Shown piece after piece: positions 25,692 to 39,365 of a stretch of 64,000 nucleotides of DNA; position 1 is the stretch's first letter, and each line of letters starts with the position of its first letter. The position numbers and the translations under genes were made by a program. Below the pieces are notes generated by a model. That model saw nothing but the letters and a program-made list of their open reading frames with translations. It was not told the origin of the DNA and did not search any database. Source of the DNA: Hyphomicrobium denitrificans 1NES1 (GTDB taxonomy: Bacteria > Pseudomonadota > Alphaproteobacteria > Rhizobiales > Hyphomicrobiaceae); the NCBI RefSeq assembly GCF_000230975.2, contig NC_021172.1:3534001-3598000 (forward strand). The letters are read 5' to 3'.

Positions 25692-26738
25692 TCACCCCGT
25701 CTCGGCGGTCGCCCACAGCATGAAGCGGATGACGTCCCGCGGTGCGAGCTGGATGCGCAAGGCTGCTCGGAGTTCGTCGATGCCGAACGTGCGCAGATCC
25801 TCGTTGAAGTCGCCAAGTCGAGGCGACAATGCGATCGCTTCGATGCCGGTCGCCTCGGCACGCTCTGTCAGACTCGCCACCGCCGCGTCGCCGGCCGCAT
25901 CGGCATCGCGCGCGATGTAGAGGCGGCGCAGCGTCAGCGGGAGCAGCATGGCGGTGAGGTGGTTGGCGGAAAGCGCCGCGGCCATCGGCAAGGTCGGCAG
26001 CACGCATCGTAGTGACAGCATGGTCTCGATGCCCTCGCCGGCGGCGAGCACGTCGCTCGCCACACCGAAGCGGACCGCGTTGCCGAGGAGGTTGCCCATC
26101 GCGCGTCTCGGCGTGTCGATCGGCGCTTTGCCACGGCCTGACGGATCGAGCCAGGTGCGGTGTGCGCCGGTCATCCAGTCGTCGAGATCAGTGACACGGG
26201 CGATCATCGCTGGCCAGGTCTCGGTCGGTGCGTTCTCGTCCGGGCGATAGTAGCAGCGCGGGTGAAAGCGCAGCGCGCCGGCTTCGTGCAAAGCCGTAAT
26301 GCCGCGATTGCGCAAATACGCTTCCACGAGTGTCCGCGCGATCGGCTGCGACATAGCGAACAGTCGCCGTGCGGCCTCGGGCGATCCCGTCTGTGCCGGG
26401 ATACGTGCAGCTTTCGGCGATGGCTCCGGGTCCGAGCGGGGCAGGCTCAGGAAGCGTCGTGCCTCGTCGGCGACATCGTGGAAATCGAGAAGGCCACAGC
26501 TTTCACGGATGACGTCAAGCAGATCGCCGTGCTCGCCGGTGGCGGCATCGGTCCATTTGCCGGCCGGCCCTTTGGGCGACTCCTTCAACCGGACGAACAT
26601 GGAGCGGCCCGGCGTGTTGCGCGCGTCGCCGACCAGCCAATAGCGGCCCTCGCGGCGGCCATTGGAGAGATAATGACGGCACACCGCCTCGGCTTCGCGC
26701 GCGAGACGGTGCGCCAGGTCGGAAGCATCGCGCGGCAT
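25692..26738 (-). CDS. Toprim-domain protein (primase-like, DUF7146 type)
   Basis: This 348-residue protein has an N-terminal region resembling ICE-encoded DNA primases and a C-terminal toprim domain. Catalytic Glu lies in AAGEGIETM (residues 234-238) and the Asp-x-Asp in ARDADAAGD (278-280), so metal-dependent nucleotidyl transfer is plausible. It likely primes complementary-strand synthesis after DNA entry. Its ATG at 26738 overlaps the stop of the large helicase gene by one base, so the two are translated together. No zinc-finger is obvious at the N-terminus. Confidence 0.87.
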   Translation of the reverse strand: MPRDASDLAHRLAREAEAVCRHYLSNGRREGRYWLVGDARNTPGRSMFVRLKESPKGPAGKWTDAATGEHGDLLDVIRESCGLLDFHDVADEARRFLSLPRSDPEPSPKAARIPAQTGSPEAARRLFAMSQPIARTLVEAYLRNRGITALHEAGALRFHPRCYYRPDENAPTETWPAMIARVTDLDDWMTGAHRTWLDPSGRGKAPIDTPRRAMGNLLGNAVRFGVASDVLAAGEGIETMLSLRCVLPTLPMAAALSANHLTAMLLPLTLRRLYIARDADAAGDAAVASLTERAEATGIEAIALSPRLGDFNEDLRTFGIDELRAALRIQLAPRDVIRFMLWATAETG

Positions 26739-29700
26739 CACGCGGCCTCCCGCTCGCCGATGCGCTCGACGGGAAAGCGCTCCAGCACTTTCGTCAGCAC
26801 GCCGACGCCGCTCGCATCGGTTGGCACAAACATGCGGAGCTTCCAGGTGATGATCTCGTGGAAGAGGCCGTAGGCCTTGAGCCGGTCGCGCATAGTGTCG
26901 GTGAAGCCCGACAGCTCGATGCGGTTCGCGCCCATAACGCGCACGCGACGGAGCTGCAGGCCTTCGGCGAGATCGAGAACGGTGCGGCCGTCCATCAGCG
27001 CGGCGAAGGCGCTCTCCGGCGTCAGCGCCGGTTCGCCCTCCGCCAGCGTGCTCGCGACCCAGGCGGGCGAGACCTTGCGGCCGATGATGCGTTCACCCGC
27101 ATCGGTCTGAAGCCGATAGACGCGCGTCGACTCGTTCGGCAGGCGCTTCCAGATCGGCAGGAGCAATCCGCCGACGATATGGGTCGTGCTGTCCGTGAAC
27201 TCGGGCACCTCGGCAAGCTCGCGTTGCCAGGCCGAGGCAAAGGTGTCGCGCTCCGCCTCGACCCAATGGCTCTCGGCCATCGTCTTCAAAGGTACGCCGT
27301 GGCTCTCCATCGGCCGGATGAGCCGCACGCGCTGCTCGATCTCCCCATCGTCGAGCATCAGGCTCGGCGCTGGGACTTGCACGGCGGCGCGTCCCGAGCG
27401 TTCGTTGACGAGCAGCACGACGCGCGGATCGGAGAGCCGATCCAGAGCCTCGTTCAGCGTCACGGGACGATTGCGCTCGCGCTGCGCTACGGTGAGCAGG
27501 CGCGTCTCCGCGCCGGTGCCGGGATGGGTGTAGATCGTGCACCGATCGGTGACGACAAAGCTTTCGGCGCGAAGCGTTTCGAGCCCGACATCGTAGGTGC
27601 CTGACGCGATGGCGCCTTCGATGCGGGCCGTGAGCAACTGCTCGAAGGCCGTGAACAGCACGTTCTGCAGATCGATGGTCAGCGCCAGCAGGCGATTGAG
27701 GAAGGTGGTGATCGGCGGCAGCTCGTCCTTGATGCCGTTGGCGTCCATCAGCTTCAAGCCGGTGGCGTCCTCGAAGGTCTGAAGCGAGCAGCCCTCCACC
27801 TTGTCCCTGACCAGAAGCATGTAGAGCTGCCGCAACGCGTCGCGCCCGTAGTGGCTTTCGAGATTGTCCTCGGGCCGGAACAAGCCCTGGCCGCCGGTCT
27901 GACGCTGGCCGCGCGTGATCGCGCCGAGCGTGTCGAGGCGGCGCGCTATGGTGCTCAAGAAGCGCTTCTCCGCTTTCACGTCCGTGGCGATCGGACGGAA
28001 CAGCGGCGGCTGGGCCTGGTTGGTGCGGTTAGTGCGGCCGAGACCCTGGATCGCCGCATCCGCCTTCCAGCCGGGTTCGAGCAGGTAGTGGACGCGCAGG
28101 CGCCGATTCCGCGCCGACAACTCGGCGTGGTAGCTGCGTCCCGTGCCGCCCGCTTCCGAGAAGACGAGGATGCGCTTAGCGTCATCCATGAAGGCGGCCG
28201 TCTCCGCGAGGTTGGCCGAGCCGGCGCGGTTCTCGACCATCAGGCGGTCGCTCTTGCGGATCACGCGGCGCGAGCGGCCGGTGACCTCGGCGACCATATC
28301 GGTGCCGAAGCGCTGAACGATCTGGTCGAGCGCGCCGGGCACCGGTGGGAGCGAGGCGAGCTTCTCGATCAGGCGGTCGCGACGAGCGACGGCTTCGCGG
28401 CTCTCGACCGGCTGGCCGTCGCGGTAGACCGGCCGGGAGGAGAGATTGCCCTCTGAATCCGTGAAGGGCTCGTAGAGCTGCACCGGGAAGGAATGGGCGA
28501 GATAGGCGAGGACGTACTCGCGCGGTGTGATGTCGACCTGGACGTCGTTCCAGTCCTCTGTCGGGATTTCCGCGAGCCGGCGCTCCATCAGCGCTTCGCC
28601 GGTCGAGACGATCTGGATGACGGCGGCATGGCCGGCCTCGAGATCGCGCTCGATCGAGCGGATCAGCGACGGCGTTTTCATACTGGTCAGCAGATGGCCG
28701 AAGAAGCGCTGCTTGGCGGATTCGAAGGCGGAGCGCGCGGCGGACTTCGCCTGCGCGTTCAGCGTGCCAGTCTCGCCCGTGATGTTCGCGGCCTGCATCG
28801 CCGCGTCGAGGTTGTTGTGAATGATCGAGAACGCGCCGGCATAGGCGTCGTAGATGCGGACCTGCTCCGGCGTGAGCCGGTGCTCGACCAGTTCGTATTC
28901 GACGCCTTCGTAGGAGAGCGAGCGAGCAGCATAGAGGCCGAGCGCCTTAAGGTCGCGCGCCAGCACCTCCATTGCCGCGACGCCGCCGGCCTCGATCGCC
29001 TCGACGAACTCGGCGCGGGTCGCGAACGGGAAATCCTCGCCGCCCCAGAGTCCGAGACGCTGGGCATAGGCGAGGTTATGGACCGTTGTGGCGCCGGTCG
29101 CGGAGACGTAGACGATGCGGGCATTCGGCAAGGCGTGCTGGAGCCGCAGCCCCGCCCGGCCTTGCTGCGAGGCGGCCTGGTCGCCGCGTTCGCCCTTGCC
29201 GCCGACCGCGTTCTGCATGGCGTGGCTCTCGTCGAAAATGATCACTCCGTCGAAGTCGGAGCCCAACCATTCGACGATCTGCTGGACGCGCGAAAGCTTC
29301 TCGCCGCGTTCATCGGTGCGCAGCGTGGCGTAGGTCGCAAATAGGACGCCTTCCGCCAGCCGGATCGGCGTGCCCTGACGAAAGCGGGAGAGCGGCGTGA
29401 CGAGCAGCCGCTCCATGCCGAGCGCCGACCAATCGCGCTGGGCGTCTTCGATCAGCTTGTCGGATTTAGAGACCCAGACGGCGCGAGGCCGGCCCTTCAG
29501 CCAGTTGTCGAGCAGGATGCCGGCGACCTGGCGACCCTTACCTGCACCGGTGCCGTCGCCGAGAAACCATCCTCGTCGAAAGCGGACAGCATTTTCGGCA
29601 TCGTCGCGCGCCGCTGTGACGACATCGAAGGTCTCGTCGATGGACCAGTTGCCGGCGAGGAAGTTCGAATGGGCCTCACCGGCATAGATGACGGATTCGA

Positions 29701-31051
29701 GCTGAGCGTCCGACAGCAAGCCTTCGGCGACGAGGTTCGCCGGCAGACGCGGCCGATAGGACGGTTTCGGCGGCGCGACCGAGGCCATCGCAGCCGACTG
29801 CACCAGCTTGGTGGGATGGGCCTGCGACCCGGAAATACGGATCGACTGCAATCCGTATTCTTCATAAAGCGCCTCCGTGAGCCGCGCGCCCTCCGGCGGG
29901 GTCCAATCGACGGTTTCGTAGGCGAGCTCCATCGCTTCCGGTTCGGGGAGCGCCGGAGCGGAGGACGGACGCATCGCGAAGGCGCGCACCGTGCGGGGGA
30001 TGGCGTGACGCGCACCGGTGACGGCGATGGACGCTTCAATCGGCAAGCGCGGTGGAACCTGCTCGATGACCCAGGCGAGCAAGGTGGCTGCATCCGGCGC
30101 GACACCCGAAGAGTCAGGGAACATGTCCGGATCGACGGCGGGTTGCTTGTCGATGACGAGCAGCCGCGTGTCGATCGTGGTGCCGTGCTTCGCATAGACC
30201 GAGCCGTCGACGGCGGCGGAAAACACGAGCCGTCCGCGCTCCTGCAGGTGAGCGAAGGTGCCGGTCCAGGCCGGATTGTCGGGCGCGAAGCTCGATCCGG
30301 TGATCGCGACGAGACGCCCGCCGTTGCACAGCCGCGCTAGGGCGGAGGTGACGTGGCGAAGCGCAGCGTCCGCCATGCGCCGATCGACGTTCGCCATCGC
30401 CGAGAAGGGCGGGTTCATCAGAACCACGCTCGGCGCGATCCCGACATCGAGATGATCGTCAATCTGTGCCGCATCGAACCGGGTGACGGCGATGTCCGGA
30501 AAGAGGTGGTCGAGCAACGCGGCGCGGGCCTCGGCCAGCTCGTTCAGCACGAGCGAGCCGCCGGCCAGTTCGGCCAGGATGGCGAGCAGCCCGGTGCCGG
30601 CCGAAGGCTCGAGCACCCAATCGGCCGGCGTGATGGCTGCGGCCGTGCATGCGGCAAGTCCGAGCGGGACCGGCGTCGAGAATTGCTGGAGCGCCTGGCT
30701 CTCCTCGGAGCGGCGCGTATGGGTGGGGAGAAGGTCCGCGATCTTCGCCAGCAAAGGCAGCATGGCGGCCGGAGACGCGGCCTTGGCGCGGATGGCCGGT
30801 CCGAATTTCCGCAGGAACAGGACCGTAGCCGCCTCGCAGGCGTCATAGGCGGTTTTCCAATCCCAGCCGCCGGCGGAATCGGAGGCGCCGAAGGCGGACT
30901 CCATGGCGGCGCGCAGGATGGCGGCATCTATCCGGCGGCCGCGTTCGAGATCGGGAAGAAGGAGCCGCGCGGCCTGGGCGATGGCGGCAGATGCGGGCGC
31001 GAGCGATGGCGTAGCCAAGCGGGCGGCCGCGGAGCTGGAAGGATTCGTCAT
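26738..31051 (-). CDS. Giant methyltransferase-helicase (strawberry-notch-like)
   Basis: This 1437-residue protein combines a DNA methyltransferase with an SF2 helicase/NTPase. The SAM-binding motif VLEPSAGTGLLA is at residues 146-157. The amino-methyltransferase motif NPPF is at 213-216. Helicase Walker A GTGAGKGR lies near 497-504 and Walker B IIFDESHA near 600-607. Strawberry-notch-type C-terminal parts follow. Such proteins are a hallmark of rhizobial ICEs and may modify or protect incoming DNA; this is inference. ATG 31051 has GAGG eight bases upstream. A long hairpin precedes it. Confidence 0.92.
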   Translation of the reverse strand: MTNPSSSAAARLATPSLAPASAAIAQAARLLLPDLERGRRIDAAILRAAMESAFGASDSAGGWDWKTAYDACEAATVLFLRKFGPAIRAKAASPAAMLPLLAKIADLLPTHTRRSEESQALQQFSTPVPLGLAACTAAAITPADWVLEPSAGTGLLAILAELAGGSLVLNELAEARAALLDHLFPDIAVTRFDAAQIDDHLDVGIAPSVVLMNPPFSAMANVDRRMADAALRHVTSALARLCNGGRLVAITGSSFAPDNPAWTGTFAHLQERGRLVFSAAVDGSVYAKHGTTIDTRLLVIDKQPAVDPDMFPDSSGVAPDAATLLAWVIEQVPPRLPIEASIAVTGARHAIPRTVRAFAMRPSSAPALPEPEAMELAYETVDWTPPEGARLTEALYEEYGLQSIRISGSQAHPTKLVQSAAMASVAPPKPSYRPRLPANLVAEGLLSDAQLESVIYAGEAHSNFLAGNWSIDETFDVVTAARDDAENAVRFRRGWFLGDGTGAGKGRQVAGILLDNWLKGRPRAVWVSKSDKLIEDAQRDWSALGMERLLVTPLSRFRQGTPIRLAEGVLFATYATLRTDERGEKLSRVQQIVEWLGSDFDGVIIFDESHAMQNAVGGKGERGDQAASQQGRAGLRLQHALPNARIVYVSATGATTVHNLAYAQRLGLWGGEDFPFATRAEFVEAIEAGGVAAMEVLARDLKALGLYAARSLSYEGVEYELVEHRLTPEQVRIYDAYAGAFSIIHNNLDAAMQAANITGETGTLNAQAKSAARSAFESAKQRFFGHLLTSMKTPSLIRSIERDLEAGHAAVIQIVSTGEALMERRLAEIPTEDWNDVQVDITPREYVLAYLAHSFPVQLYEPFTDSEGNLSSRPVYRDGQPVESREAVARRDRLIEKLASLPPVPGALDQIVQRFGTDMVAEVTGRSRRVIRKSDRLMVENRAGSANLAETAAFMDDAKRILVFSEAGGTGRSYHAELSARNRRLRVHYLLEPGWKADAAIQGLGRTNRTNQAQPPLFRPIATDVKAEKRFLSTIARRLDTLGAITRGQRQTGGQGLFRPEDNLESHYGRDALRQLYMLLVRDKVEGCSLQTFEDATGLKLMDANGIKDELPPITTFLNRLLALTIDLQNVLFTAFEQLLTARIEGAIASGTYDVGLETLRAESFVVTDRCTIYTHPGTGAETRLLTVAQRERNRPVTLNEALDRLSDPRVVLLVNERSGRAAVQVPAPSLMLDDGEIEQRVRLIRPMESHGVPLKTMAESHWVEAERDTFASAWQRELAEVPEFTDSTTHIVGGLLLPIWKRLPNESTRVYRLQTDAGERIIGRKVSPAWVASTLAEGEPALTPESAFAALMDGRTVLDLAEGLQLRRVRVMGANRIELSGFTDTMRDRLKAYGLFHEIITWKLRMFVPTDASGVGVLTKVLERFPVERIGEREAA

Positions 31052-31072
31052 GAAGGGGACCTCGGGAGAGCA

Positions 31073-31128
31073 GGAAGGGCCGAGCCGCCGGGCGCTCTCT
31101 CTCGACCCGACCGGCTCAAACCCCTTCC
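31073..31128 (-). promoter_or_regulatory. Long structured leader of the methyltransferase-helicase gene
   Basis: There are three nested stems: GGAAGGG/CCCTTCC (31073-31079 with 31122-31128), GAGCCG/CGGCTC (31082-31087 with 31112-31117) and CGGG/CCCG (31089-31092 with 31106-31109). On the transcribed strand the apical loop reads UCGAGAGAGAGCG. It lies 21 bases before the start codon. The GAGAGAG loop matches the parB and ardC leaders. Confidence 0.55.
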
Positions 31129-31147
31129 GGCCAACCTCTCGCTCTCG

Positions 31148-34246: not shown

Positions 34247-36382
34247 TCACTCGGCGGCAATCACAGCCGGCTCGTCGGTCTCGTCCTCGCCGGCGCTGTC
34301 CTCGTCGTCGGCGAGGAAGGCGGGAAGCGCTTGCTCATCCCCGCCCGCGTCGGCGTCGGTTGTGTCGGCGCCTTCGGCCTCCGGAGTCCGCAGCGGCTCG
34401 GGCAGCCAGCCGGTGCCGTCGAGCAACCGTTCGGCCTCCTTCGCCATGTCCGCCTTCTTCAGGTGGTCGATGAGTTGCGCCGACTGCTCGCCCTTCGCCT
34501 CGCGCACCGCTTCGAGGATGCGAGGCTTGGTGACACGGCCGAGATAGCTATCGACCGTCGGCCGCCAGCCGGCTTCCACCATGTCGAGCCCGACGGCACG
34601 TGCGAGCCGGTCAGCCTGGACGAGACGGCGCTGGACGCCATGAACCGACACGCCAGGACCGCCGTAGCGATCGCCCTTCTCGTAGAGCGCATTGACTCCG
34701 AACGAGACGCAATGCGCCAGAAGCGCGCCACGGCTGGCGTCGTCCAGCGCGGCGAGCCAGTCCCAAAGCGCGGCCTCGTCCTTCGGCAGATCGGCTTTCC
34801 AGGCTTCGTGCCGTTCCGCGACCGCCTTGGCGGACGGGCTGTCCTTCAGATCGGCGGGCTGGATTGGGAAGGACACCTGCCGCACCGCCGCTTCGAGACA
34901 AGTCCCCGATCCGCTGTGCTGGAAGGTGTCGAGGCAGAGCTTGTGCAGCAACGCTGTCATCGCGACCTGCGGGTTGTTCGCCACGGCGTCCCGCAGCGCC
35001 AGCGTCCGGTACGCGGTCAGCTCGCTGACGAGCCGGTCGGGCAGCGGCCTGACGGCGTCGTCCTCATTTTCCTCCGGCTCGCCCTGGCCGCCGATCGTGA
35101 TGATGGCGCGCTGCGCCGTGGGCGAGGACGGTTCGTCGCCTTCGCTCGGATCGCCATCGGCCTCCACTTCGCCCTCGCCATCCACGGTGGCCGGTGCCTC
35201 GTCTTCCGGACGGACGTAGGCGCGATCGACGCAAAGGCTGCCGTCCCCGTCGATGCTCGCGAACACGCCGGCGCGGGCGATCTCAGCTAAGTCGTAGCTG
35301 ACCGGGCGATCCTCGAAAGCGGCGAGCGCCGTTTCGATCTCGCCGAGGCGAGCGTCGATTTCGTCTGGCAACTCGTCGGCGTTCTCGTATTCGGCCTCGA
35401 GCTTGGCATAATCGGCCTTCAACGCGTCGATCGTCGCCTGTTCCTCGGCCGTGAGGTCCGTCGGCGTGCCTTCGAGCTCGCGCAGATGGTGGGTGTGGCC
35501 ATAGGGGAAGTCGACGTTGACCTCGATCCACTTCCAGCCCTCGGCGGCGATCGTCTCCGCTTCGGCTTTCAGCTTCTCCGCGACCAAGCCGTCGAGCAGG
35601 CCGACATTCTCCAGCCAGCCGCCATCGTCCTGTTGGAAGAGGTCGCGCATGACAATGCCGCCCGCCTGCTCATAGGCGTCGAGGCCGACGAACAGGACCC
35701 TCTTGTCGGACGCGCGCACCGTGCGTTCCGTCAGCATGCGACGGATCTGATACGGCTCCTGACTGTAGGAGCGCTGGAGCGTTTCCCAGACCTGCTCCTG
35801 GCGCGCGTGATCATCCGTCACGGAGAACGCCATCAGTTGCTCGAGCGACATGCCATCTTCGGCATAGGTGTCGAGCAGTTTCTCGGACACGGCAGCAAGA
35901 CGCAGCCGCTGCTTCACCACGTTCACGCCAACGAAGAAAGCCGCGGCGATATCCTCCTCGGACTGGCCTTTCTGGCGCAGCGCTTGGAAGGCGCGGAACT
36001 GGTCGAGCGGATGGAGCGGCGTGCGCTGGACGTTCTCGGCGAGCGAATCCTCCTCGGCCGAGATCTCGACGCTGGGATCGCGCACAACGCAGGGCACCGG
36101 CCCGGTCTTGGCTAGACGCTTCTGTTTGACGAGAAGCTGCAGCGCGCGGTAGCGCCGCCCGCCGGCCGGGACCTCGAACATGCCGGTCTCGGCACCGTCG
36201 GCGTCGAGGACCGGCCGGACGCTGAGGCTTTGCAGGAGCGTGCGCCGGGCGATGTCCTCGGCCAGCTCCTCGATCGAGACGCCGGCCTTCACGCGTCGGA
36301 CGTTCGACTGAGACAGAACAAGCTTGTTGAAGGGAATGTCGCGCGAGGACGACAGGGTGATCTTCTGAACCGCAGGTGCCAT
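34247..36382 (-). CDS. parB: ParB/Srx-domain protein (large ICE type)
   Basis: This 711-residue protein has an N-terminal ParB/sulfiredoxin nuclease-like domain (SQSNVRRVKAGVSIEELAED, VPAGGRRYRALQLL, SLAENVQRTPLHPLDQFRAF). A helix-turn-helix follows (SEEDIAAAFFVGVNVVKQRL, near residues 140-160). A long acidic, coiled-coil-rich centre and a C-terminal domain unique to ICE ParBs complete it. ParB-like proteins can bind or hydrolyse CTP and act on DNA; in ICEs they may aid maintenance or counter host defence. ATG 36382 has GGAG upstream, preceded by a structured leader that is a twin of the ardC leader. Confidence 0.9.
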   Translation of the reverse strand: MAPAVQKITLSSSRDIPFNKLVLSQSNVRRVKAGVSIEELAEDIARRTLLQSLSVRPVLDADGAETGMFEVPAGGRRYRALQLLVKQKRLAKTGPVPCVVRDPSVEISAEEDSLAENVQRTPLHPLDQFRAFQALRQKGQSEEDIAAAFFVGVNVVKQRLRLAAVSEKLLDTYAEDGMSLEQLMAFSVTDDHARQEQVWETLQRSYSQEPYQIRRMLTERTVRASDKRVLFVGLDAYEQAGGIVMRDLFQQDDGGWLENVGLLDGLVAEKLKAEAETIAAEGWKWIEVNVDFPYGHTHHLRELEGTPTDLTAEEQATIDALKADYAKLEAEYENADELPDEIDARLGEIETALAAFEDRPVSYDLAEIARAGVFASIDGDGSLCVDRAYVRPEDEAPATVDGEGEVEADGDPSEGDEPSSPTAQRAIITIGGQGEPEENEDDAVRPLPDRLVSELTAYRTLALRDAVANNPQVAMTALLHKLCLDTFQHSGSGTCLEAAVRQVSFPIQPADLKDSPSAKAVAERHEAWKADLPKDEAALWDWLAALDDASRGALLAHCVSFGVNALYEKGDRYGGPGVSVHGVQRRLVQADRLARAVGLDMVEAGWRPTVDSYLGRVTKPRILEAVREAKGEQSAQLIDHLKKADMAKEAERLLDGTGWLPEPLRTPEAEGADTTDADAGGDEQALPAFLADDEDSAGEDETDEPAVIAAE

Positions 36383-36397
36383 CGGGATAGTCTCCGC

Positions 36398-36437
36398 GAC
36401 GGGCGCCGAAAGACTCTCTCTCGGCTTTCAACCCGTC
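36398..36437 (-). promoter_or_regulatory. Structured leader of parB (GAGAGAG-loop hairpin)
   Basis: On the transcribed strand the outer stem is GACGGG/CCCGTC, followed by an asymmetric internal loop (UUGAAA against G). The inner stem is GCCGA/UCGGC with an 11-base loop GAGAGAGUCUU. It ends 15 bases before the start codon, next to GCGGAGA. The geometry equals that of the ardC leader, with two compensatory pair changes. Confidence 0.75.
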
Positions 36438-36571
36438 ACGAAGACCGGCGCAGCCCTCTTCCTCTGGGACGCCGCAGACCTACCGAGCCGGAGATGCGCA
36501 TCCGCACAGATCCGACTTTGCGTGACGGCTGGCTCCGCCAAAGATGTGGGCCGAGTCCAGCGGCGGAAGAA

Positions 36572-37531
36572 TCACGCTGCCTCCTGTTCGGCATCCGATG
36601 GCGTGGCGGGGCGTTCGTCGTCGCTGGGAAGAAAGCCGAGGAGGAAATCTGCGGCCTTGCTTGCCTGTGAGGCGGCGCGCACGATGGCGCGATTGTCCTC
36701 GCGCAGCACTTCGAGCCAGGAGCCGATATAGTCCGCGTGGCGCACCGTCGGGGCGATGCCGAGCGAGGCGCAGCAGAAGGCGGCGTTCATCTCGGCGACC
36801 AGCTCCTCGAACGCATACTTCTTGGAGCCGAAGGAGCCGGAGAGATCGCGGTTCAGCCGGTGCGGGGCGCCGCTGGCGTGACCGAGCTCATGCAGCGCCG
36901 TGCGGTGCCAGTTGATCGGTTCGAAATAGGCTTGCGGTGGCGGGACCTGCACATAGTCGTGCGCGGGGACATAGAAGGCGCGGTTGCCGCCGATGCGGAA
37001 GTCGATGCCCGTCGCCTTGATCAGTGCCTCCACCTTGGGCTCGATCAGTCCGGGCTCGGGCGGCGGCGCTGTGACGGCGAGGTCTTCAGGCAGACCCTCA
37101 CACTGCGCCAAGTTGAACACTGTAAAGCGCTTGAGGAATGGGATCGCCTGCGCTTCTTCGCCGGTCTCGCGCGCCCGCTTCTTCTCGTCGTCGGGAATGA
37201 AGCGGTCGGCATAGACAACAGTGGTGCCGTGCTCGCCCTTGCGGACATTGCCCCCGAGGCCGAGCGTCTGGCGAAACGTAACCCAGCCCTGGACCGGGAA
37301 ACCGTGCTCGATCACCGATCCCCAGAGGATCAGCACATTGATCCCCGAATAGTTTCGGCCGGTGGCGGCGTTCTTCGGCATGGCAAGCGGCGCCTTCGCC
37401 GCCGCCGTGCCCCAAGGCTGAACCCAAGGCACACGGCCGGCCTCCAGTTCGCCGATGATCTTGGTGGTGATTTCGTCATAAAGGCTCGTCCGGTCGAAGC
37501 CGGAACGGGCGCGAGCGGTGTGTCTGGACAT
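36572..37531 (-). CDS. ardC: ArdC-type anti-restriction protein
   Basis: This 319-residue protein has an N-terminal ssDNA-binding ArdC domain (residues 15-130, with GRNYSGINVLILWGS and VRKGEHGTTVVYADRF) and a C-terminal zincin-like metallopeptidase domain. The zinc motif HELGH is at 214-218, followed by FEELVAEMNAAFCC. ArdC proteins protect incoming plasmid DNA from host restriction. It is the promoter-proximal gene of the long leftward block and has a structured leader matching that of parB. All zinc ligands appear intact. Confidence 0.93.
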   Translation of the reverse strand: MSRHTARARSGFDRTSLYDEITTKIIGELEAGRVPWVQPWGTAAAKAPLAMPKNAATGRNYSGINVLILWGSVIEHGFPVQGWVTFRQTLGLGGNVRKGEHGTTVVYADRFIPDDEKKRARETGEEAQAIPFLKRFTVFNLAQCEGLPEDLAVTAPPPEPGLIEPKVEALIKATGIDFRIGGNRAFYVPAHDYVQVPPPQAYFEPINWHRTALHELGHASGAPHRLNRDLSGSFGSKKYAFEELVAEMNAAFCCASLGIAPTVRHADYIGSWLEVLREDNRAIVRAASQASKAADFLLGFLPSDDERPATPSDAEQEAA

Positions 37532-37544
37532 CGCGGATCTCCGC

Positions 37545-37584
37545 GACGGGCGCTGGAAGCCTCTCTCCCAGCCTTCAACCCGTC
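37545..37584 (-). promoter_or_regulatory. Structured leader of ardC (GAGAGAG-loop hairpin)
   Basis: It has the same 6-bp outer stem GACGGG/CCCGTC, the same internal loop size, an inner stem GCUGG/CCAGC and an 11-base loop GAGAGAGGCUU on the transcribed strand. It ends 13 bases before the ATG, next to GCGGAGA. Two inner pairs differ from the parB copy, both with pairing preserved. Confidence 0.75.
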
Positions 37585-37837
37585 ACGAAAACCCTGTCTG
37601 CACTCTCACTCTCGGGGCGTTGCGGGGTGTCCCCGCAGAAGGGGGTGTGCCGGCGACTGCGGCGCCGGTCAGGGGGAAAGCCTTCACCCAACTTGAGGAG
37701 GTACGTTGGCGCCTGGAACTCGGGCCCAGACAGGCCCGGCACGGGCGCTTGACCCGCATATTTTCAGTTTCGCATTACGCGGGAGTGTGATAAAACCTCT
37801 GCTAAAATTTATGATAGCCAAGGAAACGTCACTGTCA
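37585..37837. promoter_or_regulatory. Divergent region between ardC and abiE
   Basis: This region must hold promoters for the leftward ardC block and the rightward AbiE operon. The right part (37760-37815) is AT-rich compared with its surroundings, with TAAAAT at 37803-37808 as a possible -10 box for abiE. A GCGGGG(T)GTCCCCGC-like hairpin lies near 37621-37637. No gene is evident. Confidence 0.4.
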
Positions 37838-38458
37838 ATGACATCGGCGAACGCCCAGCGAGTTCGTGCCCTAGATCTCTTGAAGTCGCGGGGAATGCTC
37901 CGCCAGAAGGACTTCATGGCCGAAGGCATTGGCCCGGAGACGCTCGCCCGTCTCGTACGGGAGGCGGCGGTCGTGCGTCCGGCCCGGGGCCTCTATCAGC
38001 TCCCGGACACCCAGATCGAGGCGGCCCACATGCTTGCCGAAGCCGCCGTGCTGGTTCCCAAAGGGGTCGTCTGCCTGACCTCGGCGCTTCAATATCATGA
38101 ACTGACGCTGCAGATGCCGTCAGCCGTATGGATGGCGATCGAGCGTACCGCCTGGCGGCCGAAGATCGACTATCCGCGCATCCGCTTCGTGCGCTTCACC
38201 GGATCGGCGCTGACCGAGGGGGTTGAGCGTCATCGCGTCGAGAACATCGAGGTCCCCATCACGGATCCGGCGCGGACCATCGTCGACTGTTTCCGCTACC
38301 GGGCCAAGGTCGGCCTCGATGTCGCCATGGAAGGACTTCGCGAAGGCCTCCGCCGCCAGCGATGTACACCTGATGATCTGTGGCGTTACGCGCGAACGGC
38401 GCGGGTCTGGTCAGTGATGCGCCCTTACGTCGAAGCGATGGCGGCCGATGCCACGTGA
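37838..38458 (+). CDS. AbiEi-type antitoxin (type IV toxin-antitoxin)
   Basis: This 206-residue protein has an N-terminal winged helix (RVRALDLLKSRGMLRQKDFM, then GPETLARLVREAAVVRPARG) typical of AbiEi antitoxins. The C-terminal domain (YPRIRFVRFTGSALTEGVER and DPARTIVDCFRYR) probably counters the toxin. AbiEi also represses its own operon. ATG 37838 is chosen; ATG 37811 in the same frame is possible. It overlaps the toxin gene by 11 bases, the standard arrangement. Confidence 0.88.
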   Translation: MTSANAQRVRALDLLKSRGMLRQKDFMAEGIGPETLARLVREAAVVRPARGLYQLPDTQIEAAHMLAEAAVLVPKGVVCLTSALQYHELTLQMPSAVWMAIERTAWRPKIDYPRIRFVRFTGSALTEGVERHRVENIEVPITDPARTIVDCFRYRAKVGLDVAMEGLREGLRRQRCTPDDLWRYARTARVWSVMRPYVEAMAADAT

Positions 38459-39365
38459 GCCTCGCAATATTGGCGCGTCGGTGCGGGCCCGCCTGCTGGA
38501 TCGGGCGCGCGCGGAGCGATCCGATTTCCAGATTCTGCTGACGCGCTATGCGCTCGAGCGTCTGCTCTACCGGCTGAGCATTTCCCCCCATCGCGACCGC
38601 TTCATTCTAAAGGGGGCGATGCTCTTTGTGACCTGGGTCGCCGATCCCTTCCGGCCGACTCGCGATCTCGACCTGCTCGGTTCTGGCGACAATGGCGCCG
38701 AGGCGATCGCGGAAACCTTCCGCGTCATCTGCGCCCAGCCGGTCGCCGATGACGGTGTGATATTCAATGTCGCTGCGCTGCAGGCGGCGCCGATCCGCGA
38801 GGAAGTGGAATATGGCGGCGTACGGGTACGCACAACCGCGACGATCGCCGGTGCGCGCATCCCAATTCAAGTTGATGTCGGCTTCGGCGATACCGTCACG
38901 CCGGCGCCGGTCGAGATCGACTATCCCACCTTGCTGGACGCCCCGGCACCGCATCTTCGAGCCTACCCGATCGAGACGGTGGTGGCGGAGAAATTTGAAG
39001 CCTTGGTCGCGCTCGGCATGGCCAACAGCCGACTCAAGGATTTCTATGATCTTTGGCTGATTGCGCACACCTTCAAATTTGGGCGGCCCGCACTTTCTAA
39101 AGCCGTGCAGCGCACATTCGAGCGGCGCGGCACAGCGCTCCCAGCCGATATTCCGGTTGGTTTGACGGATGAATTCGCGGCGGCGTGGGCTGTCCAGTGG
39201 CGAACCTTGCTCACGCGCGAGCGCATGGCGGCGGCGCCAGAAGGATTCACGACAGTCATCGCTGATCTTCAGGATTTCTTGATGCCGTTACTTGGTGGGT
39301 CAAACACAGAGTCGGTTTGGCCGGCCGGCGGGCCATGGTCGCTCGGAGCATCGAAAGATGAATAG
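38448..39365 (+). CDS. AbiEii-type nucleotidyltransferase toxin
   Basis: This 305-residue protein belongs to the DUF1814/AbiEii family. The substrate motif FILKGAMLF (residues 52-60) and catalytic Asp pair TRDLDLLG (71-78) are intact. A later conserved block is YPIETVVAEKFEALVALG with SRLKDFYDLWLI. Such toxins transfer nucleotides to target RNAs and abort phage infection when the antitoxin fails. In the ICE it may also stabilise the element by addiction. The ATG 38448 overlaps abiEi. Confidence 0.9.
   Translation: MPREPRNIGASVRARLLDRARAERSDFQILLTRYALERLLYRLSISPHRDRFILKGAMLFVTWVADPFRPTRDLDLLGSGDNGAEAIAETFRVICAQPVADDGVIFNVAALQAAPIREEVEYGGVRVRTTATIAGARIPIQVDVGFGDTVTPAPVEIDYPTLLDAPAPHLRAYPIETVVAEKFEALVALGMANSRLKDFYDLWLIAHTFKFGRPALSKAVQRTFERRGTALPADIPVGLTDEFAAAWAVQWRTLLTRERMAAAPEGFTTVIADLQDFLMPLLGGSNTESVWPAGGPWSLGASKDE

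Follow-up and report, generated by a model that had tools for sequence, protein, structure and literature searches.

To our knowledge, the switching of anti-restriction and other early genes at entry only is known mainly from single-strand promoters and from a few repressor or EGeRS-type systems. Structured RNA is found in Proteobacteria in the leaders of DNA-acting genes, as in the radC RNA motif. This motif is listed as RF01754 in PMC2864571. For pLS20, PMC8708921 describes structured regions ahead of ardC and four other operons, and the leading regions of plasmids hold anti-defence genes, some of them driven by Frpo (PMC11541004). ArdC of R388 is required in recipient cells (PMC7213743). 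Here we describe hairpin leaders ahead of an ardC gene and a ParB-like gene in a stretch of 64,000 nucleotides from Hyphomicrobium denitrificans 1NES1 (the whole of which is called the window below). We put the chance at about two in three that they belong to a family of cis-acting RNA leaders of alphaproteobacterial conjugative elements, which would mask the ribosome site of establishment genes.

Two hairpin leaders in a probable conjugative element

The genes and leader features of the two loci are the following:

34247..36382, minus strand: gene of a ParB_N-domain protein of 711 aa (ORF; Pfam ParB_N)
36389..36446, minus strand: hairpin of the ParB-like leader, first-noted core 36398-36437 (RNAfold; R1 match 75.7 bits)
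36392..36395, minus strand: Shine-Dalgarno GGAG of the ParB-like leader, in the 3' arm of the outer stem (sequence, fold, family-wide unpaired probability)
36456..36465, minus strand: upstream element AGAGGAAGAG (AGAG-N2-AGAG) of the ParB-like leader
36572..37531, minus strand: ardC gene, 319 aa (Pfam ArdcN, MPTase-PolyVal)
37535..37594, minus strand: hairpin of the ardC leader, first-noted core 37545-37584 (RNAfold; R1 match 84.7 bits)
37539..37542, minus strand: Shine-Dalgarno GGAG of the ardC leader, in the 3' arm of the outer stem (sequence, fold, family-wide unpaired probability)
37603..37612, minus strand: upstream element AGAGTGAGAG of the ardC leader
37811..37838, minus strand: promoter-like TTGACA-16-TATCAT directed toward ardC (consensus scan)

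An earlier note on this DNA had described hairpins with the same outer arms, GACGGG/CCCGTC, ahead of both genes, and inner stems (GCCGA/TCGGC and GCTGG/CCAGC) that differ by two pairs altered on both sides; the sequence bears out both points. The observation is confirmed as real, and it understates the extent of the structure. Instead of the 5-bp inner stem and 11-base loop given there, RNAfold predicts an inner stem of 9 bp with a GAG loop in the ParB-like leader and of 8 bp with a 5-nt loop in the ardC leader, and what was taken for an internal loop is unpaired on the 5' side only, as a bulge of 5 nt. Nor does the hairpin stop just before the ribosome site: its outer stem extends to 16 bp (ParB-like) and 17 bp (ardC) and encloses GGAG. 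The two leaders fold at -41.8 and -41.6 kcal/mol (RNA z -5.5 and -6.4; 0 of 200 shuffles equally stable), both have AGAG-N2-AGAG 8-9 nt 5' of the stem, and 3-6 nt separate the stem from the start codon. The flanks are alike mainly close to the hairpin, with identity at 20 of the 30 upstream positions next to it and in 15 of 19 columns on the side towards the ATG; over 60 bases upstream 36 of 63 columns are identical, a value near the 95th percentile among 2000 random pairs.

The exact pattern GACGGGTTGAA-N18-30-CCCGTC has two matches in the 3.8-Mb genome, which are the two window leaders, and a covariance model adds two further, diverged copies at 989,616 and 990,741. A second related locus of the same genome (contig 1, 987263-990799; L122, L340) bears three leaders, of the helicase type, ParB-like and ArdC, and its ParB-like protein is 86% identical.

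At 2.8-12.3 kb the window encodes a TrbE-like ATPase, a coupling protein of the VirD4 type and a protein resembling relaxases (DUF3363; the Pfam Relaxase score stays below cut-off); a replication initiator lies at 15.3 kb and an integrase at 44.8-46.1 kb, after which chromosomal genes follow. The element looks like an ICE; its left end and oriT were not located. The genes ardC and ParB-like, together with those for a helicase, Toprim and transfer, lie on the minus strand and the other intervening genes on the plus strand; ardC is therefore directed toward the relaxase-like gene. Divergent from ardC is an AbiEi/AbiEii toxin-antitoxin pair (37706-39365, plus strand), followed by a KAP NTPase, a TatD DNase and the integrase.

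That the ParB-like gene is a maintenance gene, as the note had it, appears doubtful: ParB_N is matched barely above the Pfam cut-off (27.2 against 26.3 bits), all NCBIfam partition models stay below theirs, and a ParA-like ATPase lies about 19 kb away, adjoining the replication gene. For another ParB group, the ParB domains of polyvalent proteins, PMC5512222 proposes a role as nucleases and not in partition.

Distribution, covariation and strand

R1, a covariance model of the hairpin only, built from 19 sequences and used with a match threshold of E<=0.01, recovers the leader in 90 genomes, at 213 distinct places in 127 clusters, weak matches included. Of 385 genomes in the class of the window 29 have matches, as do 41 of 199 in its order and 36 of 398 in a phylum sample, 35 of these 36 within the class; the sole match outside scores 27.7 bits and has a spurious-looking frame downstream. 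Two or more R1 places are present in 66 genomes, and one genome (G823) has 12 copies. Within clusters all 86 neighbour pairs share the same strand, 64 of them spaced 1.0-2.3 kb. A blastn search with the ardC leader matched 140 of 72,556 plasmid records, and the 12 matching records that were retrieved are all alphaproteobacterial; 50,697 phage records gave no match, nor did IMG/VR when searched with one exact pattern. A 6.5-kb Sphingomonas plasmid with four annotated genes (L043) carries a leader upstream of an unannotated stretch.

In two model-fitted alignments 89.3% and 90.2% of the cells are paired, changes on both sides occur in 22 and 21 of 23 pairs (a level that 0 of 500 shuffles reached), and slid partners score far lower. 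The unfitted 19-sequence alignment has paired changes in 6 of 16 predicted pairs. In a tree-aware test of 290 distinct sequences, ranks 1-5 among 1540 column pairs are all taken by the inner stem. When changes were placed on substitution-bearing branches, 5 of the 23 predicted pairs reached E<0.05 with only those 23 tested, and over all 1540 pairs the best E would be about 0.01 and the next about 0.11; when they were placed by branch length, 1 of the 1540 pairs reached E<0.05, a predicted one. For both tests the tree was built from 59 columns, and the alignments had been fitted to the model. Outer-core pairs are nearly invariant, with too little variation to inform covariation, and in the basal part of the stem about 76% of cells pair.

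Wobble pairs show a polarity. Core and inner stems comprise 251 Watson-Crick, 42 G-U and 0 A-C cells in the unfitted seed alignment, and G-U outnumbers A-C by 380 to 45 among 191 fitted distinct sequences. Sixteen rows were dropped by hand for this count, and the same 16 plus one duplicate for the covariation test, identical rows being counted once in both (191 and 290 distinct); all but one of the dropped rows score below 30 bits, the exception (L204, 40.0 bits) being removed for a spurious-looking frame. Folded with DNA parameters, the mRNA-sense strand of the window leaders is more stable than shuffles (z -4.1 and -2.9) and the complement resembles shuffles (z -0.02 and -0.79). Strand folding and the G-U/A-C polarity therefore argue for selection on the mRNA-sense strand.

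This polarity bears on two explanations at the level of DNA. A protein that binds the inverted repeat CGTGACGGG...CCCGTCGCG in double-stranded DNA and controls transcription would be expected to keep its site constant, as the outer core arms nearly are. Such an operator is nevertheless very unlikely in view of the paired changes in the inner stem, the wobble polarity and a placement that follows the start codon, no conserved promoter having been detected upstream of it. Transcription from the TTGACA-16-TATCAT site of the window, if it occurs, would place the hairpin within about 270 nt of 5' UTR; among 73 distinct ardC upstream regions, promoter sites of the E. coli-type consensus are in no excess over shuffles, and the window's site is therefore not a family feature.

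Alternatively, the hairpin could act in the entering strand as a single-stranded promoter of the Frpo/ssi type from which establishment genes are transcribed. A leading region would be in keeping with the gene content and with ardC pointing at the relaxase-like gene, even though oriT was not located, and leading-region genes driven by Frpo are known (PMC11541004). However, we consider this highly improbable: a stable hairpin is predicted for the mRNA strand of both window leaders and not for the template strand, G-U is tolerated and A-C hardly, a consensus scan detected no promoter-like site and no -35/-10 within the stems of the window hairpins, and the start codon follows just 3-6 nt past the stem.

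Genes behind the leader and the predicted masking of the ribosome site

From 228 model matches, 214 copies were kept after the removal of 14 opposite-strand or duplicate ones. An ORF of at least 40 codons stands behind 205 of the 214, and in 183 of the 214 the chosen ORF starts 3-7 nt past the R1 match. Grouped by similarity, the 205 fall mainly into ParB-like (94), ArdC (47), DUF932-like (33) and a 182-aa family (11), with a 128-aa family (3) and single AlpA and DUF2958 genes in addition; the two largest groups include the window's own genes, and the name DUF932-like rests on a plasmid annotation and on a Pfam hit that stays under the cut-off. Of the 214 copies, 26 belong to none of these five families (nine have no ORF, two are AlpA and DUF2958), and several low-scoring ones among them are probably due to chance.

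Among the best 80 of at least 586 ArdC homologues the leader is present in all 80, with a second leader downstream in 70; of 176 matches, the 150 best went into the alignment of ArdC loci. ParB-like matches in the 385 class genomes numbered 47 and were compared by hand, six without N-terminus being excluded: R1 leaders precede 27 of 27 homologues of at least 52% identity and 1 of 14 below 50%. Of 126 stretches, 40 combine ArdC with ParB-like leaders and 29 combine DUF932-like with ParB-like ones, and in none of the 126 do ArdC and DUF932-like leaders share a stretch, as if each substituted for the other ahead of the ParB-like gene. The unnamed 182-aa family (11 loci, among them L173, L180 and L188) is a candidate new establishment gene; the one member scanned has no Pfam or NCBIfam match. 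The leaders of the 128-aa genes, likewise unnamed (L131, L132, L141), match R1, have neither the upstream AGAG element nor the AGAG loop, and perhaps form a diverged subtype.

At least 8 of the 11 positions of the upstream AGAG element are present in 47 of 47 ArdC, 33 of 33 DUF932-like and 90 of 94 ParB-like leaders; in a control stretch further upstream the counts are 1, 2 and 4, respectively. The element is found in 8 of 11 leaders of the 182-aa family, 0 of 3 of the 128-aa family and 13 of the other 26, and in most leaders the loop is likewise AGAG. In ArdC leaders it lies 7 to 10 nt before the R1 match (8 nt in 31 of 47, 9 nt in 13 of 47). A leader peptide was considered for the ardC leader of the window, where a GTG in AGAGTGAGAG opens a short frame to the TGA of CGTGACGGG; it was rejected, with frames judged by eye, as the ParB-like leader of the window has no GTG and as the frame is not conserved owing to the varying distance between element and match. 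Within elements, the loops, bulges and inner stems of 40 ArdC/ParB-like pairs are no more alike than those of re-dealt pairs; 29 DUF932-like/ParB-like pairs show a modest excess of likeness in the bulge (6 of 500 as high), the inner 5' arm (12 of 500) and the loop (7 of 500).

The fold encloses the ribosome site to a degree that depends on the gene. The median probability of GGAG being unpaired is 0.016 for ParB-like (n=91) and 0.052 for ArdC leaders (n=46), compared with 0.289 for the controls, 415 starts from these loci that may include spurious frames; with the upstream part shuffled it rises to 0.430 and 0.538, respectively. DUF932-like (0.266, n=31) and 182-aa leaders (0.196, n=10) are weaker, and values below 0.2 are reached by 66 of 91 ParB-like, 29 of 46 ArdC and 14 of 31 DUF932-like leaders and by 110 of 415 controls. 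Predicted masking is thus evident for ParB-like and ArdC, intermediate for the 182-aa family and absent as a group trait from DUF932-like leaders; it is not universal, the DUF932-like leaders being close to the controls.

Two further explanations accept an RNA and differ in what it does. A helix of 25 bp with a single bulge could be a target of RNase III or a stability element, in which cutting or protection sets message level or access. Many copies are seemingly intra-operon, 70 of 92 ParB-like ones having a same-strand ORF that ends <=300 nt upstream by a rough ORF criterion, which would agree with this. Neither a ribosome site within the stem nor a near-fixed spacing to the start would be needed, though, and we regard the explanation as unlikely. 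Alternatively, the leader might be conserved without regulation, passed on along with a block of core genes and maintained because it enhances translation or offers a standby site. Gene-and-leader blocks do move as units, but a masked ribosome site is odd for an enhancer, and the AGAG signature common to different gene families and to a second hairpin type leaves this account little credit.

Computation supports the masking leader family by its fold, its conservation and covariation, its strand, the location of the ribosome site inside the stem and the recurring set of genes. The inner stem covaries beyond phylogeny, and the structure lies on the transcribed strand at a fixed position before the start. 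The idea of a shared cis-regulatory RNA, put forward in the earlier note, has therefore gained good support from wide conservation, covariation, mRNA-strand polarity, a near-fixed distance to the start and a co-resident gene set; the 6.5-kb plasmid, with a leader and only four annotated genes, counts against our best explanation. Under this explanation, the mRNA segment directly 5' of the start codon would fold into a long bulged hairpin with the Shine-Dalgarno in its 3' arm, and by masking this site it would hold ArdC, the ParB-like protein and the products of partner genes at a low default level of translation. A common factor may read AGAG in the upstream pair and the loop and open or lock the hairpin, by which the genes would act together, perhaps right after transfer; no trans factor acting on the leader was found. 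The proposed timing of both genes on entry is made plausible by R388, whose ArdC the recipient needs (PMC7213743).

A leader of a second type precedes a helicase gene of the window:

26738..31051, minus strand: Strawberry-notch-type helicase gene, 1437 aa (Pfam AAA_34, Helicase_C_4)
31052..31146, minus strand: second leader type, with AGAG-N2-AGAG, a different long hairpin, the tip GAGAGAGAGC and GCTCTC next to the ribosome site
31066..31071, minus strand: GCTCTC, complement of the tip GAGAGC (sequence)
31136..31145, minus strand: upstream element AGAGCGAGAG of the second leader type

GAGAGC is also contained in the upstream element of this leader. Related leaders are present in 25 of 72,556 plasmid records, and the window's own genome has one at a second place. 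R2, a covariance model of this type from 13 sequences, matches 24 of the 199 order genomes, all 24 among the 41 R1-positive ones (about five by chance). In 42 distinct sequences, the window's included, the 5' end resembles AGAG-N2-AGAG in 40, the tip GAGAG is present in 42 and GCTCTC in 40. The sequence suggests that GCTCTC might pair alternatively with the upstream element or the tip, and we go no further than a suggestion because these parts are too constant for covariation. A tentative and rather doubtful extension is an establishment regulon under translational control: one factor, either a protein that binds RNA or a CUCU-bearing sRNA, would read AGAG in both leader types and silence the ArdC, ParB-like, DUF932-like and helicase messages in a settled host, its absence or titration in a new recipient would release a burst of synthesis, and the pairing of GCUCUC in the second type with the upstream AGAG or the tip would form a built-in switch.

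Comparison with known RNA families and transfer systems

Rfam 15, scanned over the whole window with cmscan at gathering thresholds, returned nothing, a scan that alone covered the second leader type. Permissive Rfam scans gave only matches far under curated scores at the window leaders; in 12 relatives such scores are reached by tRNAs and one sRNA alone, none of them at a leader. The radC RNA (RF01754) is absent among matches at E<=10 in the region and at E<=5 in the 12 relatives, and STAXI (RF01728) has no covariance-model match in window, region or these relatives. There is no Rfam riboswitch among the window matches, and a riboswitch is unlikely for a single-hairpin leader. Rfam is said to include the motifs of the 224-motif study. 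Titles and abstract starts of open-licence papers yielded no description of the leader, and the text of PMC11109978 is without the words ardC, antirestriction, ParB or DUF932. Because no convincing Rfam match and no description in the literature searched was found, we take the leader for a new RNA family, of a familiar kind and with an unusual regulon.

A short, well-defined RNA across alphaproteobacterial elements makes a translational answer to entry-only switching directly testable, and its covariance model flags candidate establishment genes, unnamed ones too, in plasmids and ICEs. Like the radC RNA, the leader precedes DNA-acting genes in Proteobacteria, and leaders that mask the ribosome site generally share with it the Shine-Dalgarno within a stable stem; it differs from the latter in being common to several genes of one mobile element. 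STAXI is likewise situated near antirestriction and other DNA-handling genes, but consists of repeated pseudoknots and is listed for Enterobacteriales in PMC2864571. Frpo/ssi hairpins also stand ahead of anti-restriction and other early genes of conjugative elements (PMC11541004); they mimic a promoter on the transferred strand, whereas the window leader folds on the mRNA strand. EGeRS1 of the pLS20 family comes close, with similar structured repeats directly 5' of the ribosome sites of ardC and establishment operons, as described in PMC8708921. According to the same paper, however, EGeRS1 spans 420-750 bp with several branches, belongs to Bacillus plasmids and blocks read-through transcription; the description of our leader sets it apart, as one hairpin of about 60 nt with a 10-nt element, in Alphaproteobacteria, with the ribosome site inside.
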